Source: a bacterium (GTDB taxonomy: Bacteria > UBA4055). Taken from it: DNA of 8,696 nucleotides. The stretch spans positions 1 through 8,696 of the forward strand of contig JAKQBN010000053.1 of the NCBI GenBank assembly GCA_029559475.1. The letters are read 5' to 3'. Position 1 is the stretch's first letter, and each line of letters opens with the position of its first letter. A program made the translations under genes and the position numbers. The notes beneath the pieces are model-generated. The model did no database searches, was not told where the DNA came from, and saw nothing but the letters and a program-made list of their open reading frames with translations. Of the stretch, positions 2,253-8,696 are shown in pieces.

Positions 2253-3959
2253 CTATACATTGACTTCAATGATTCTTACGCTGCGTTTCTGTTGCTTTAG
2301 TATTTCAGCGATCTCAGATAGAGATGTTTTTTGATGGGGGTTTATTCTGTCGAGCGCTTTAAATAAATGAACAGAGCTGAAACAGAAGACCAGAAAATTG
2401 CCTTCGGTCCGTTTTAATGCTGTACAGGTGTTTCCTCCGCTTGTATGCTCAGTTAATAAGCGTTTAATAAAATCAGCAGAAATGTTTTCTGAATTTTCAG
2501 GAACTATCAAAACTGTTCCCGTAAGGTCTTTCAGCCAGTCTTTAGCTATGATTAGTTCATACGCTTCGCCTTTACCCGATTCTGAAAATATAACTTCAGG
2601 CTTGAGACCATCAATAGTCCCGATATTATTTCTATTATCGGGATGAATAATAATCCCTATAGAATCGATCCCGTTATCAATAAGCGATTTTATTTTGGTT
2701 TCAATTTTTTGAGCGATAAATCCGGACGTGGAAATAATTAACGCAGCCAATGTTTTATGAAGAAGCGGTTTCGAAGAAATGTACTCGGATTCTCTTTTTT
2801 CTCCATTATTTTGCTTTGTATGATAAGAATTAACTTTTTTATTCTTATTGAAGTAACATTCAACTGCAGAAGAAATATCGGTTTGATCGATGACCTTTTT
2901 AGAGTTTAATTCAGACAAATACTTATTGAGTTCTTCAATGTTCATGCATAAAACACCTTGAAAGATTTCTGCAGAAGTTTCTTCTGATTCAAAACTTTCT
3001 TCTTTATCAGTGATCTTTATGATCTTTGAAACCACATTTCTAATAATTTTACCTGCTGGAAATTTTCTGCTTTGAATTGTTTTTGTAAGTATGGTGCACT
3101 CGCTGTCTTTCGATTTATGGTCGCTTAATAGATCTTTTACGGTATAAACATACAAGCCGGATAAATCCTGAATGAAGATCAAATAACCAGTTTTGTACTG
3201 AAATAAGCTTAACGTATTATAAATGATCTCAGAAGTGCTTTCCGATTCTTTAGTAAAAAGGAATTCATATTTGATTTTTAATGTTTTCCTTATTTTATCT
3301 GATTCTTTTTTTGAACAAGATATTACTATTTTCTCTACTTCGGAAAGATCCATTGTATTTAATGCGGACAAGTCACGCTCAGGATCGTTCTTTATCAGTA
3401 AAATGATCGGATTTGAGATTTTTATAACAGTCTTATCAAGCTGTCTTTTTACAAGAGTTTTATTTATGAAGTTTACGATGAGTGAAAACAATAAAAGAGT
3501 ACATATACCTGATATAATATATCCGAGGAGCCCGAATTTAGTTGTTTTAGTCGAATTCTTATGAAAATTATCCTTTTTATCGTTCTGTATAAAAAAACTC
3601 AGATCATTGTACAAATTTCTTTTCTCACTATCATCTAAAATGATATGTCTGGACTGAAGCAGCTTATGCTCATTTGAGCCTGAGGTTACGATAATGACCG
3701 TCTGCAGAGATTTGTCTTCATCAGTATATGTATAGAATCGGATTTTCTCAGCAGGATAAATTTCGATCGAACTGCGGGGAAAAATTCGCAGTAAGTATTC
3801 TGATTGGATTATTCGTGTTGATCCGTTTATTTTTTCTGCGGCGATTTCTATCCGATGGTCTCCGAAGTATATCATCGAAATACCTGCAATGAACAAAAAT
3901 ATCACTATCTGAATATAGATTATGGATTTCATCTTTAATTCATATTCAAATTTATGCAT
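2253..3959 (-). CDS. Membrane-anchored protein with two tandem degenerate GlmU/NTase-like domains
   Basis: I do not recognise this 568-residue protein as a named family. A first transmembrane segment (about 14-33) is followed by a region of about 108 residues predicted outside the membrane, a second segment (about 143-164), and then a basic stretch (INKTLVKRQLDK) that places the large C-terminal part in the cytoplasm. Two C-terminal repeats, about 183-385 and 403-568, resemble the pyrophosphorylase domain of GlmU in element order. Repeat 1 has KYEFLFTKES, GYLIFIQDLSGL (like GlmU LVLYGDVPL, with D265 kept), KDLLSDH, GKIIRNVVSKIIKITDKE (like YGRIVRD..V..IVE.KD), EIFQGVLCM (like EINTGIY) and VIDQTDISSA (like EYYLTDII). 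Repeat 2 has LAALIIS, PEVIFSESGKGEAYELI, GTVLIVPENSE, KRLLTEH and a shortened tail. The GxGTRM loop and GD are lost, so catalysis is unlikely. The start ATG at 3959 has only a weak ribosome binding site; a second ATG ten codons in is an alternative. It lies 33 bp downstream of the aminopeptidase gene. The fold assignment is inference from pattern. Confidence 0.6.
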   Translation of the reverse strand: MHKFEYELKMKSIIYIQIVIFLFIAGISMIYFGDHRIEIAAEKINGSTRIIQSEYLLRIFPRSSIEIYPAEKIRFYTYTDEDKSLQTVIIVTSGSNEHKLLQSRHIILDDSEKRNLYNDLSFFIQNDKKDNFHKNSTKTTKFGLLGYIISGICTLLLFSLIVNFINKTLVKRQLDKTVIKISNPIILLIKNDPERDLSALNTMDLSEVEKIVISCSKKESDKIRKTLKIKYEFLFTKESESTSEIIYNTLSLFQYKTGYLIFIQDLSGLYVYTVKDLLSDHKSKDSECTILTKTIQSRKFPAGKIIRNVVSKIIKITDKEESFESEETSAEIFQGVLCMNIEELNKYLSELNSKKVIDQTDISSAVECYFNKNKKVNSYHTKQNNGEKRESEYISSKPLLHKTLAALIISTSGFIAQKIETKIKSLIDNGIDSIGIIIHPDNRNNIGTIDGLKPEVIFSESGKGEAYELIIAKDWLKDLTGTVLIVPENSENISADFIKRLLTEHTSGGNTCTALKRTEGNFLVFCFSSVHLFKALDRINPHQKTSLSEIAEILKQQKRSVRIIEVNV

Positions 3960-3992: not shown

Positions 3993-6041
3993 CTATATTC
4001 CAGCTTTATCGAGAGGAATATTAAGCTCTTCCGCGCCTTTAACGGCGAATCTTCCGTTCCGTATAATATCTATTTTTTTCCCGTCAGCTGAAATGCCGGA
4101 AATGAATTCTATATCCTCGTACGGCAGAGTAATGTCTGTGTGTACTCCGGTATAGGCTTTAGAATGATCTTTTTTCCTGTTGATGGTCATTTCGTTGTCC
4201 CTGGCAGTGATCTCTTTGTTGTCGATAGGATTGAACGTAGCCTTGTCTTCTTCGTGCGAGAAACATGTGTCCCCGATAGCGAAATGAGGTCCCATTTTTT
4301 CGATGATCAGCACAGGAAGAACCTCAAGGATATTATACTTTTTAGCTACCGTATAAGCTAATGTATTTGTTCCTATGGCGAATTCACCTATAGGCAGGGT
4401 TTTGTGCGGGAATATCAGATTTTCCTCGATGAATTTTCTGTTATCAGCTTTGTTCTTAAAATTCGCGCAGCTGTAGTCTGAAATAAATCCGTCTTTAAAA
4501 TCGAGTCTCAGTTCTTTGAATTTTAAGCCGTTCAGGAATGTTTCTTTTATATGCAGAGTTCCGTTAGTACCTTTCAATTGCGGGCTTGTAAAAACTTCGC
4601 CCACAGGGATGTTCACATCCGCTCCGCAGTTGTAGTAATTCGTATGTATTTTCGGGTTCGTTAATGTCTGATTCTTAATTATAATGTCGGTCAGGTTGCC
4701 GTTCGTTCCTTTTACGTGGATCATGCCGGCCTTGTCCATCGCGTCGATTATGTTCTTCTGTATCTTTTCGTATTTTGAGCTTTCGAGCATATTGACTTCA
4801 AGTATGTCCTCGAAGATCTTCTCGAACTCGGTTCCAATCTCAGGTGACGGGAAAGCTATGATACAGAAGCTGTTCTCAGTTCTTGGAATATATTTATTCC
4901 TGATCTGCATGCTGCGGTTCATGAAATGCTGAAATTCTTTCTGCTGATCAGCCGAATATGAAAGAGCGGATTTCTTGTTTTGGGGAGAGAAAGGTTTTTC
5001 GCCGAAACTTTCAACGAGTATCACGCCTGAAAATGCAGAAGTATCATCTTTGAGATTTTTATAAACCTTTTCGGTGAGTTCAAGCTTTTTCTCGGCGAAT
5101 TCTTTATCGAAATATACAGCGTTAAAGAATTTCAGATCGTGAGAAACCTGTTTATTCACCGGAGTAGAAGACGGGCATCCTACGATAGAATCAAGCCCGA
5201 GGTCTTTCTGCAGGAAGTGGATAAGCCTTTTTATAAGTTCTTCCTGACCAGCGCTGAATCTTATCATGACAGATGATTTTATGCTCAAGTCTTTTCCGCC
5301 GTTGACAAATCCCTGCTCGTAGGCCTTTGCGATCTGTTTAGCCAGTATATCAAGCTTTTTCTTCGAATAGCTTTTAAAGAATTCAGCTGTCTTAATCTCG
5401 TTCTTTGTAATGTTGATATTGTATCTGTAAAGATATCGAAGATCCTTAGGGTCGGAGTTCAGGACTATTTCCTTATAATGCGTATATTCTTTACCGAACA
5501 TCTCTTTATACGAAACAAGATTTTCATCGAAATCATAACGTTTTTCATATTTAGCCACAAGCTCTTTTAAAAACTTGTCTGTAAGTTTCTTTTTTGCTCT
5601 GTAGCCGTCATACATCTCAAGAAACAGCCTGTTATATCTTTCCATTTGATATATCCTGTGCTCGAAAGCGAAAGACCTGTACTGTCTGAAAAAATAGAAT
5701 ATAACGTAAGCAATCCGGCCTGTTTTCTCGCCAAAAATTTTTACTGAATAATCCGGATTCAGAAAAGACGTCTTGTAGTTTTTCGGATTTATCTCGTTGG
5801 ATATGGAGTCGAATTCCTTTTTAATCTTTGCGAACGAGTTCTTTTCGAAATATTTGCCGTCGATCTTCTGCTCAAATTTATAATAATTAAGGATCATGCC
5901 GGAAATTTTATAAAGAAATTCTCCCTCCTTTTTACTATCTGAAGCGAGATCACCGTTCGCACTTTTGATCTTCTTTATGCCCTTTTCATAATTTCCGACT
6001 ACTTTTTGATTAAGTTCCGAATAGAATTTTTTAAGATCCAT
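3993..6041 (-). CDS. M29-family (aminopeptidase T-like) metallopeptidase, long form
   Basis: This is probably a cytoplasmic two-metal aminopeptidase that removes N-terminal residues from peptides. The M29 domain occupies about residues 220-682, with GTNGNLTDI (445-453), GEVFTSPQLKGTNGTLHI (481-498), LPIGEFAIGTNTLAY (549-563), GPHFAIGDTCF (584-594) and VHTDITLPY (633-641). By alignment with the AmpS/AmpT/PepS group, metal ligands would be E482, E553, H586, H634 and D636. The position of the family's active-site tyrosine, seven residues after the histidine, is C593. Classic M29 enzymes are about 370-410 residues; this one has 682, because of a lysine- and tyrosine-rich helical N-terminal extension (about 1-220) and an insertion near 595-630. 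I recall long M29 homologues with the same GDTCF and HTDITxPY blocks in Clostridia, so this may be a subfamily rather than an oddity. There is no signal peptide. AGAGGA (6051-6046) precedes ATG at 6041. It lies 18 bp downstream of the beta-barrel gene. Confidence 0.85.
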   Translation of the reverse strand: MDLKKFYSELNQKVVGNYEKGIKKIKSANGDLASDSKKEGEFLYKISGMILNYYKFEQKIDGKYFEKNSFAKIKKEFDSISNEINPKNYKTSFLNPDYSVKIFGEKTGRIAYVIFYFFRQYRSFAFEHRIYQMERYNRLFLEMYDGYRAKKKLTDKFLKELVAKYEKRYDFDENLVSYKEMFGKEYTHYKEIVLNSDPKDLRYLYRYNINITKNEIKTAEFFKSYSKKKLDILAKQIAKAYEQGFVNGGKDLSIKSSVMIRFSAGQEELIKRLIHFLQKDLGLDSIVGCPSSTPVNKQVSHDLKFFNAVYFDKEFAEKKLELTEKVYKNLKDDTSAFSGVILVESFGEKPFSPQNKKSALSYSADQQKEFQHFMNRSMQIRNKYIPRTENSFCIIAFPSPEIGTEFEKIFEDILEVNMLESSKYEKIQKNIIDAMDKAGMIHVKGTNGNLTDIIIKNQTLTNPKIHTNYYNCGADVNIPVGEVFTSPQLKGTNGTLHIKETFLNGLKFKELRLDFKDGFISDYSCANFKNKADNRKFIEENLIFPHKTLPIGEFAIGTNTLAYTVAKKYNILEVLPVLIIEKMGPHFAIGDTCFSHEEDKATFNPIDNKEITARDNEMTINRKKDHSKAYTGVHTDITLPYEDIEFISGISADGKKIDIIRNGRFAVKGAEELNIPLDKAGI

Positions 6042-6059: not shown

Positions 6060-6827
6060 TTAATTTTGAGTGAAGAACGCTGTATTATAGATTACTCTGA
6101 GTTCTCTGCTGACATTATCAGCTCCTTTAAAGTTCTTCAGCACATCTTTTATGTCAAATTCAAGATGAAGCTGATTGCTGAACGACCATCTTAATCCGAT
6201 ATTAAGATAGCCTTTTCCTCTTGAAACCGGAGAATTATCAGAATTGTCGTTGAACGCTAAATCGTACTCGCAAAGAAGATTCATGTTCTTCAACAGACTC
6301 TTATCGATTCCGATGAAAGCATTAATGTTATCGTCTCCGGGAACCGCTTCTTCTGTAACGCAGTAATTAGCTCCGGCATGCAGGCCGAGAGTTCCAAGGT
6401 TTCCTTCGGAAACGAAATAATTTTTACTGAAAACAAGATAAAATCCTTTCGACTTTACCTGATAACGCGGATCGATCCAGACTCCGTAACCCTGGCTGTC
6501 GAAGCCGAGAGCTATATTCGGATAATAATATTCCTCTGGAAGGAGTCTGTACTGCAGCCTTACTCCAGGGTGCCCGTTCCAGACAGGTTTTTCACTGCCT
6601 ATTATCCTTGAGCCTCCATAGCTTACGCCAAGGAAGAAATCCTTAAATATCCCGATATTGATCTCCGTACTCATTCCATCCGTGGCATAGAGTCTTCCGC
6701 CCAGCTCGATTTCAGCCTGCTTCAAAGTAAAAGCGGTAGGAATATCTATCATCCGTTTCGTGTTTACCGGCTGTGCGATTGCCGATATTGCGGAAATGAC
6801 TAAGAATACAGCTAATAATTTTCTCAT
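6060..6827 (-). CDS. Secreted protein, probable outer-membrane beta-barrel (YjbH-like pattern)
   Basis: The protein has 255 residues. Residues 1-18 form a Sec signal peptide (MRKLLAVFLVISAISAIA) with likely cleavage at AIA|Q and no lipobox cysteine, so it is exported but is not a lipoprotein. The mature part begins with RMIDIPTAFTLKQAEIELGGRLY and runs as alternating polar and aromatic strands: INIGIFKDFFLGVSYGG, GVRLQYRLLP, YYPNIALGFDSQGYG, KGFYLVFSKNYFV, LGLHAGANYCV, INAFIGIDKS, MNLLCEYDLAF, YLNIGLRWSF, LHLEFDIKDVL and RELRVIYNTAFF. That pattern fits a small beta-barrel of roughly ten to twelve strands. The block PNIALGFDSQGYG is reminiscent of YjbH-like exopolysaccharide-associated proteins, but I would not assign that function. 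AGGGGAG (6838-6832) sits four bases before ATG at 6827, and a perfect palindrome abuts it. It is the only clearly envelope-exposed product among otherwise cytoplasmic neighbours, so its operon link may be incidental. Confidence 0.7.
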   Translation of the reverse strand: MRKLLAVFLVISAISAIAQPVNTKRMIDIPTAFTLKQAEIELGGRLYATDGMSTEINIGIFKDFFLGVSYGGSRIIGSEKPVWNGHPGVRLQYRLLPEEYYYPNIALGFDSQGYGVWIDPRYQVKSKGFYLVFSKNYFVSEGNLGTLGLHAGANYCVTEEAVPGDDNINAFIGIDKSLLKNMNLLCEYDLAFNDNSDNSPVSRGKGYLNIGLRWSFSNQLHLEFDIKDVLKNFKGADNVSRELRVIYNTAFFTQN

Positions 6828-6837
6828 GATACTCCCC

Positions 6838-6849
6838 TGATAATTATCA
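6838..6849. promoter_or_regulatory. Perfect 12-bp palindrome abutting the SD of the beta-barrel gene
   Basis: TGATAATTATCA is its own reverse complement and lies in the 28-bp gap between the KOW gene and the beta-barrel gene. It shares one base with the AGGGGAG ribosome binding site at 6832-6838. It could be an operator for a dimeric regulator or could simply be A+T-rich chance. The GATAAT half-sites are loosely Fur-like, but a full 19-bp Fur box is not present. No T-run follows, so it is not a terminator. Confidence 0.3.
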
Positions 6850-6855
6850 ATCAGT

Positions 6856-7980
6856 TTATTTTTCTATTACTTCGACATTGGCTCTAGGTATAAGAACCTC
6901 TTTACCGTCAATATCCACGGTCATAACCCTTACCCATGTTCCGGATTCGACTTTATGGAGTTCAACCGGAAGGCTGATCACTTTTCCGAGCTTCCCGAAA
7001 TAAGGCGAACGGATGATCCTGATAACATCGCCTTTTTCAAGTCCGGATTCAGCGTAATTCTTTAAGGATTTTTCTTCGTTCGCCAGATCGTGCGTTACAA
7101 TGATCTCAGGTCTCATAACCCCCGCCCTGATCTGAGTGGCACCGTTGATGGAAGCTTTATAGCCATCGAACTTTTTCAGCAGGTTAAATGTCCTCTCGGC
7201 CATAGGGATCGTCCCGAAACCTTCTGTCAGAATAAGCGTGTAACCGATATCTTCGTGACCTGTTATAGCAACACCGAGATCATGCCCCAGAATATCTTTA
7301 ATATCCTGATAATCGAACCCGCCAGTTATAACACCCGCTACGCCTATATTTTTCGCTTTAGCAAGAGCGTCTGTTGTGATCTTTGAGCCGCAGACAATAA
7401 CTTTATTTTTCATTCCGTCATTGATCATATTAATATCAACAACTTGGTCGGGAGTTTTCGCGACCATCATGATGTTCCCGTAGGATTCTCCACCTAGGCC
7501 GATGATACCCTGAATATGAACGCCTTCGGTCTTCATGATCACGCCTTCTTTTTCGATCTCGTCTTTGACCTCCCCGTCCACATAGGCGTCAATTTCAACA
7601 GGAATAGCCGGAGCATTGAAGATCACCTGCCCGGTTATATGGGATATTTGTGTGATGGTACCGTCTATTGGAGCTTTATAATCACTTTTAAAAAAACCGA
7701 AAAAGCCTTTGCTTTGCGCGATTATTTCGCCTGTTTTAACATGGTCGCCCTCTTTCTTGAGCATGCATTCAATAAGTTCGTTCGCTTTTCCAAGACCGAG
7801 CTGCCCGGCTACGTTTATCGGATAGACCTTACCCGGAAGCTCTGTTTTAGCTACGATGGTATTTGAAGGGATCTTGTCGCCTTTTTTTACAAGAACATGT
7901 CCGAGAAGAGGAAGTTTTCTTGTTTTCTCAATAACAATTTTCGCGGCAACTTTTAAACCCGGTGTATATGCATGAGCCAT
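6856..7980 (-). CDS. Conserved protein with N-terminal barrel-sandwich region and C-terminal KOW domain
   Basis: The function is unknown to me, though the family looks conserved. Residues 1-130 resemble two lipoyl/RnfC-type barrel-sandwich hairpins: LLGHVLVKKGDKIPSNTIVAKTELPG and CMLKKEGDHVKTGEIIAQSKG, then YKAPIDGTITQISHITGQVIF. No lipoyl or biotin lysine motif is visible, so it is probably not a cofactor carrier. The middle (about 150-300) carries the glycine-rich GIIGLGGESYGNI, KVIVCGSKITTDALAKAKNIGVAGVITGG, ILTEGFGTIPMAERTF and the distinctive GATQIRAGVMRPEIIV. The C-terminus (about 311-374) is a KOW module: KGDVIRIIRSPYFGKLGKV and IPRANVEVIE. There is no signal peptide, so it is expected in the cytoplasm. 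The start is chosen at ATG 7980 with AGGAG at 7992-7988, seven bases upstream. It lies 32 bp downstream of the mutL-family gene, and the two are likely co-transcribed. A role in the same aminomutase-related pathway is inference from position only. Confidence 0.75.
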   Translation of the reverse strand: MAHAYTPGLKVAAKIVIEKTRKLPLLGHVLVKKGDKIPSNTIVAKTELPGKVYPINVAGQLGLGKANELIECMLKKEGDHVKTGEIIAQSKGFFGFFKSDYKAPIDGTITQISHITGQVIFNAPAIPVEIDAYVDGEVKDEIEKEGVIMKTEGVHIQGIIGLGGESYGNIMMVAKTPDQVVDINMINDGMKNKVIVCGSKITTDALAKAKNIGVAGVITGGFDYQDIKDILGHDLGVAITGHEDIGYTLILTEGFGTIPMAERTFNLLKKFDGYKASINGATQIRAGVMRPEIIVTHDLANEEKSLKNYAESGLEKGDVIRIIRSPYFGKLGKVISLPVELHKVESGTWVRVMTVDIDGKEVLIPRANVEVIEK

Positions 7981-7987
7981 ATCATAT

Positions 7988-7992
7988 CTCCT
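7988..7992 (-). promoter_or_regulatory. Shine-Dalgarno AGGAG of the KOW-domain gene
   Basis: AGGAG on the - strand lies seven bases before ATG 7980-7978. An earlier ATG at 7985-7983 is closer to the AGGAG but out of frame, so spacing and frame both select 7980. The element sits in the 32-bp gap after the mutL-family stop codon. Confidence 0.7.
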
Positions 7993-8012
7993 ATATCAAA
8001 TCTTAAAGTTTT

Positions 8013-8696
8013 TTACACGCCGTCTTTATGAGATTTCGGCTTATAGTTTTTTGAAATGTCCCATTTCTGGAGCATCTCGACCCTGTTTTTCATATCTTTC
8101 GTGATATTGAAAGGTCTTCCTCTTGTATCTATAACCAGCCCGACAACGCCGCCGCTTAATTTTCTGGTGATCTTTTTGCCTTTTCCTTCGCCTACATCAA
8201 ATCCGGAAGCAGGTTCGATCTCGAATTCAATTTCTTCTTCATGAGACAGGTCATATCTTAAAAGCTGGTTCGCCATGATCCAATCGTTCAGTTTCGTTCC
8301 GTCCGGAAGATCCGCTTTGATCTTCACAACAGGTTTCCCTTCTTTGACGTGTCCGACAGGGCAGATGCTTATAGCCAGATAGATCAGGCAGTCCTTGTCA
8401 AAAACTTCCATTGCGGCTTTATCACAGCCCGGAGCTTGGACTTCTGATAAAACACCAAGCTGAGGCATCATAAAGATAGAGTCCACAGCAAGTTTAGTGA
8501 TACCTTCCGGAAGGAAAGCATCAACAAGCATATGAGCCGACTGGCTTCTTAATGGCGCATGTGAAAGTACGCCGCCGGAACCTACAAGAAGATCAAGTTT
8601 CATCATGTTTACAATTGAATCATTCGAGGAATCAGCATCAAAGGCTTCCGAGATACCCTTTTCCTGCTGCACTCCTTTCAAGCCTACAGCGAAAGC
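8013..8696 (-). CDS. MutL/GlmL-family aminomutase reactivation ATPase, C-terminal part (5' end outside window)
   Basis: This is a partial gene. The frame stays open to the window edge, with AFAVG encoded by 8696-8682 just before the TTG at 8681. That TTG is therefore most likely an internal leucine rather than a start. MutL/GlmL proteins are cytoplasmic ASKHA-type ATPases associated with cobalamin-dependent carbon-skeleton and amino-group mutases (glutamate mutase, D-ornithine 4,5-aminomutase), and are thought to reactivate or assemble them. The family shows in LLVGSGGVLSHAP, then LVDAFLPEGITKLAVDSIFMMPQLGVLSE, the usual GSGG..L and PEG-T-LAVD..-PQLG-L blocks. A further domain of about 140 residues follows: CDKAAMEVFDKDCLIYLAIS, a VKEGKPVVKIKADLPDG turn, FEIEPASGFDVGEGKG and GGVVGLVIDTRGRP. 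This marks the long MutL form rather than the GlmL of about 460 residues. Neighbouring aminomutase genes would be expected upstream, beyond the right edge. It is followed after 32 bp by the KOW-domain gene. Confidence 0.88.
   Translation of the reverse strand, partial: AFAVGLKGVQQEKGISEAFDADSSNDSIVNMMKLDLLVGSGGVLSHAPLRSQSAHMLVDAFLPEGITKLAVDSIFMMPQLGVLSEVQAPGCDKAAMEVFDKDCLIYLAISICPVGHVKEGKPVVKIKADLPDGTKLNDWIMANQLLRYDLSHEEEIEFEIEPASGFDVGEGKGKKITRKLSGGVVGLVIDTRGRPFNITKDMKNRVEMLQKWDISKNYKPKSHKDGV

Follow-up and report, generated by a model that had tools for sequence, protein, structure and literature searches.

Non-catalytic sugar-nucleotide pyrophosphorylases are already known as regulators in eukaryotes, and pseudoenzymes of the nucleotidyltransferase fold form a known class. 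eIF2B epsilon (and gamma) carries this fold inside a larger complex, eIF2B being a eukaryotic translation factor and not a membrane protein. GMPPA is soluble and single-copy, in which it differs from the protein described here. Itself non-catalytic, GMPPA is reported to bind GDP-mannose and to regulate its paralogue GMPPB (PMC11228364). No paper describing a pseudoenzyme form of GlmU, or a GlmU anchored in the membrane, turned up in a search of the open-access literature. A tandem, membrane-anchored version of such proteins, derived from GlmU and carried by a bacterial phylum, would represent a new design.

The protein considered here is encoded by an uncultured bacterium of the phylum Candidatus Delongbacteria. 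The window, which is the whole stretch of 8,696 nucleotides that was analysed, constitutes one entire contig of a draft genome of 2.28 Mb. An earlier note, made from the letters alone, had proposed a membrane-anchored pseudo-nucleotidyltransferase related to GlmU, and this proposal is borne out by sequence profiles, by the predicted structure and by a residue audit. The features of the locus are as follows.

2253..3959, minus strand: tandem pseudo-GlmU membrane protein, 568 aa (ORF call, NCBIfam match, AlphaFold model)
3861..3956, minus strand: predicted membrane helix 1, spanning residues 2-33 of the model with a hydrophobic core at 12-30 (AlphaFold model, hydrophobicity)
3543..3860, minus strand: small beta-rich domain with capping helix, residues 34-139 (model; conserved across the family)
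3432..3539, minus strand: predicted membrane helix 2, spanning residues 141-176 of the model with a hydrophobic core at 144-162, then a basic stretch (model, hydrophobicity)
2805..3410, minus strand: pseudo-GlmU copy 1, residues about 184-385 (PDB and NCBIfam profiles; structure, Z 20.2 to GlmU 4ac3; hhalign)
2256..2753, minus strand: pseudo-GlmU copy 2, about residues 403-568, without the sugar-binding stretch (structure, Z 19.7 to GlmU 3dk5; phmmer; hhalign)
3993..6041, minus strand: protein of 682 aa ending in an M29 peptidase domain, 33 bp upstream of the pseudo-GlmU gene (ORF, Pfam)

GlmU ancestry of the tandem copies

That both copies are GlmU-type nucleotidyltransferase folds in tandem is strongly supported by sequence comparison and by the structure model. 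The NCBIfam model PRK14354 (GlmU) matches the single protein in two stretches (E 9.7e-23), with a score of 80.4 bits that lies below the curated cut-off of 450 for functional GlmU. PDB GlmU was matched by the single sequence at 5.5e-6 over residues 218-383, and by the profile of seven family members at 1.9e-18. In hhalign comparisons, whose E-values are pairwise and do not come from database searches, the copy profiles aligned with 29 GlmU sequences at 1.1e-30 (copy 1) and 7.9e-27 (copy 2), and with each other at 2.5e-16; phmmer aligned copy 2 of the relatives to the genome's own GlmU. When the AlphaFold model was searched with VIA-align, GlmU was the top match for both copies (Z 20.2 over residues 184-384 and Z 19.7 over residues 403-568). 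Homology to the GlmU uridyltransferase domain was thus found in both sequence and fold. A Pfam scan of the window protein returned no significant family, and NTP_transferase was matched in just one of nine family members; Pfam-level annotation overlooks proteins of this type.

The earlier note had read GlmU motifs in their usual order through the part of the protein it took to be cytoplasmic, and the NCBIfam, PDB and family-profile values above give that reading statistical support. The second GlmU-like copy, which it had placed at about residues 395-568, is upheld by phmmer on the relatives, by the hhalign value and by the structural Z score. The window protein resembles the GlmU uridyltransferase domain in fold and motif order, with both copies aligning across the domain, but differs in being tandem and membrane-anchored and in lacking the catalytic loop, conserved metal residues and the hexapeptide acetyltransferase domain, the ORF stopping after copy 2.

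Further structural matches included chains of the GMPPA/GMPPB complex, GMPPA being likewise a non-catalytic paralogue of this fold, and eIF2B chain E, which VIA-align placed on copy 2 with Z 18. Foldseek lists the chondroitin polymerase 2z87 and VIA-align the mannosylglycerate synthase 2bo4, as might be expected if the fold served some other enzymatic activity here, for example that of a GT-A glycosyltransferase. This is very improbable, since GlmU is the better match by sequence and by structure and neither copy has a conserved acidic pair where the fourth strand ends, the metal position at which the GT-A DXD motif was sought.

Loss of catalytic residues and possible roles of the copies

Residues were audited in seven members against an alignment with 29 GlmU sequences, using the 43 positions that at least 90% of these sequences conserve and the numbering of the genome's own GlmU. 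About a quarter of the conserved positions were retained, namely 73 of 301 cells in copy 1 and 67 of 301 in copy 2. The GxGxRM nucleotide loop and the lysine that follows it are absent from both copies in all seven members, and the equivalents of G12, G14, R16, K23 and N229 are kept as a motif in neither copy. Of the metal-binding residues, D104 survives in each copy in only two of the seven members, while the region of N229 is missing from both copies; N171 is kept by no member. The equivalent of Q74 and the asparagine of EIN are likewise gone from both, and copy 2 lacks the GlmU sugar-binding stretch (YGRIVRD...IVExKD). The replacements that the earlier note had reported for the window protein (no GxGTRM, QD or EN for GD, EIF for EIN) proved correct, and the losses extend across the family.

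The positions that remain, such as the glycine at 96 and the histidine at 120, which are kept in all, look largely structural in the alignment. A nucleotidyltransferase fold with its catalytic residues lost is what characterizes a pseudoenzyme, and we infer that both copies are catalytically dead across the family. Most copy 1 sequences carry a GK-[IVL]-[IM]-[RK]-[NS] stretch (also given as GKxIRNxANRI), and in six of seven members an acidic LGDxDD-like stretch replaces LGTGHA in copy 2; these two elements could be unrecognised ligand sites.

Since the copies are conserved yet look unable to catalyse, they probably act in regulation or tethering and not as enzymes, and once catalysis and the nucleotide loop are lost, the binding of proteins would be the simplest use left to them, as in GMPPA. 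The reading that we tentatively prefer, at a little short of an even chance, is that of a two-helix membrane protein whose tandem dead GlmU domains make it a non-catalytic tether or regulator, that is, a protein-binding platform. Such a platform would lie in the cytoplasm, may pair with the cell's own GlmU-type nucleotidyltransferase or with another sugar-nucleotide enzyme and, responding to the outer beta domain, would hold or tune that partner at the membrane's inner face. Control of this kind would resemble that by non-catalytic GMPPA, which pairs with and restrains active GMPPB. Against this reading stand the patchy distribution of the gene, the lack of glmU among its neighbours and the chance that the two retained elements bind a ligand.

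A doubtful but not negligible alternative is that of a sensor, in which a dead GlmU domain would still bind UDP-GlcNAc or a related ligand and relay its state across the membrane. Copy 1 does retain the region that lines the GlmU sugar site, comprising the GK-containing stretch and a Glu or Asp at the position of E156 in five of seven members, and GMPPA is reported to bind GDP-mannose while being non-catalytic (PMC11228364). The case for sugar-nucleotide sensing is nevertheless weakened by the deletion of precisely the nucleotide-binding part: the loop, its lysine, the Q74 equivalent and the EIN asparagine have gone from both copies, in each copy the metal-binding residues are either missing or not conserved, and copy 2 is without the entire sugar-binding stretch.

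Membrane helices and the beta-rich domain

The AlphaFold model, which was built from seven sequences (mean pLDDT 78; pTM 0.40), orders the protein as a membrane helix, the beta-rich domain, another helix and a pair of nucleotidyltransferase-type domains; at this pTM the arrangement of the domains relative to one another is unreliable. The two hydrophobic segments, residues 12-30 and 144-162, lie on either side of a soluble stretch. Basic residues follow the second helix in the members measured. Judged from this charge only, the predicted topology is of an extracytoplasmic beta domain and cytoplasmic GlmU copies.

In the model the beta-rich domain is possibly PH-like. A structural search with it returned many PH, PTB and Pru rows, the best of which (Z 7.0) falls in the range of noise, and Foldseek gave a best E of 0.035, to unrelated folds. 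EROS was among the weak structural matches (Z 6.9), and because all matches of the domain are weak, a relation to Ycf4/EROS is at most a lead.

The beta domain might itself be the working part outside the cell membrane, with the tandem copies serving as a structural or dimerisation module. The membrane-beta-membrane part also stands alone as proteins of 191-192 aa in three genomes, and in the pair compared it has changed slightly less than the dead GlmU copies (pN 0.18 vs 0.25). These copies, however, are also under purifying selection, each of the seven full-length members has both of them, and we regard a purely structural role for them as unlikely. With respect to the preferred platform, its extension to a transmembrane regulator, whose outer domain would control the envelope sugar-nucleotide supply through the tandem dead GlmU domains as a bacterial GMPPA-type control coupling the envelope to UDP-GlcNAc synthesis, is speculative and judged improbable as a whole. 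Were it to hold in some form, the design may link envelope state to precursor supply.

Distribution, origin and gene neighbourhood

A scan of genome contigs with the single sequence found no relatives; one with a five-sequence alignment did. In a profile search, full-length members were found in seven of the 13 Delongbacteria family genomes, with a contig-edge fragment of the gene in one further genome and an additional tandem paralogue, shorter at 381 aa, in one genome. The relatives that carry names are Candidatus Delongbacteria, one of them labelled UBP11_UBA4055. Four Delongbacteria genomes had no member (two are drafts with more than 300 contigs), so that GlmU does not generally depend on the protein for its function. 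A search for the N-terminal part in 373 genomes outside the family gave one spurious match only, a weak one in G202 that sits in an RND pump and was rejected, and the matches inspected outside Delongbacteria (L009, L019, L023) are ordinary GlmU domains with an intact loop. The tandem architecture was not found outside Delongbacteria among the genomes searched.

A functionless, decaying glmU duplicate would likewise be expected to have lost catalytic residues and to have diverged strongly, as this protein has (21-27% identity to relatives). Yet pN lies well below pS in the two closest full-length members (0.24 vs 0.74, with pS near saturation), pointing to purifying selection on the gene, and open frames with a common architecture persist in seven genomes. 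Given full-length members in seven of 13 genomes and selection in the pair compared, decay is largely refuted and hardly merits belief.

A stand-alone uridyltransferase-domain GlmU occurs in 12 of the 13 Delongbacteria genomes (for example G000:C25, L002 1324-2061; about 245 aa), and a bifunctional GlmU above the curated cut-off in none of the 13; the acetyltransferase is presumably a separate protein. In the tree, the pseudo copy 1 sequences, whose branches are long, group together (100/99), which argues that this copy has a single origin. The pseudo family shares stretches such as AEEWLKDFSG and HNKNNNACT with the Delongbacteria GlmU2, the protein that receives the highest score from the family profile, but GlmU and GlmU2 differ from it in their intact catalytic loop, their length of 240-260 aa and their lack of membrane helices. 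The GlmU or GlmU2 lineage is a possible source of the pseudo copies, and the tree does not settle which. At the loci of the second GlmU paralogue, whose loop is intact (L077, L078, L079), a GHMP (galactokinase-like) kinase gene adjoins in two and a Gfo/Idh/MocA oxidoreductase gene in two, which suggests an amino-sugar salvage operon.

Adjoining genes did not include glmU. In five genomes the pseudo-GlmU gene is adjoined, in varying orientations, by a gene for a YfbK-like von Willebrand protein (L033 6744-8633, L036 5037-6944, L034 11804-13702) with a carboxypeptidase-regulatory-like domain, the domains being checked by Pfam in one of the five. In three genomes a protein of 303-315 aa with a signal-peptide-like start is encoded directly downstream on the same strand (L033 11703-12614, L036 8930-9877, L032 11795-12727); such a neighbour fits a membrane-spanning pseudo-GlmU protein. 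These secreted-looking proteins have no Pfam match, and their homologues occur elsewhere as tandem pairs in other genomes. Neither type of neighbour adjoins the gene in the window, and the M29-domain neighbour is absent from the relatives' loci that were read. Co-transcription of the pseudo-GlmU gene with the M29 peptidase gene is possible only. Promoter and terminator scans gave no signal above shuffles.

The window's plus strand carries SelA and PrmC homologues. G+C content is about 0.30-0.33 at 2500-3750, within the pseudo-GlmU gene, against roughly 0.38-0.45 on both sides. Three products are encoded on the minus strand at 6060-8696: one is YjbH-like, another bears an RnfC-like barrel-sandwich domain, and the third, present as its C-terminal part, is of MutL/GlmL type and weakly resembles an ornithine-degradation protein.
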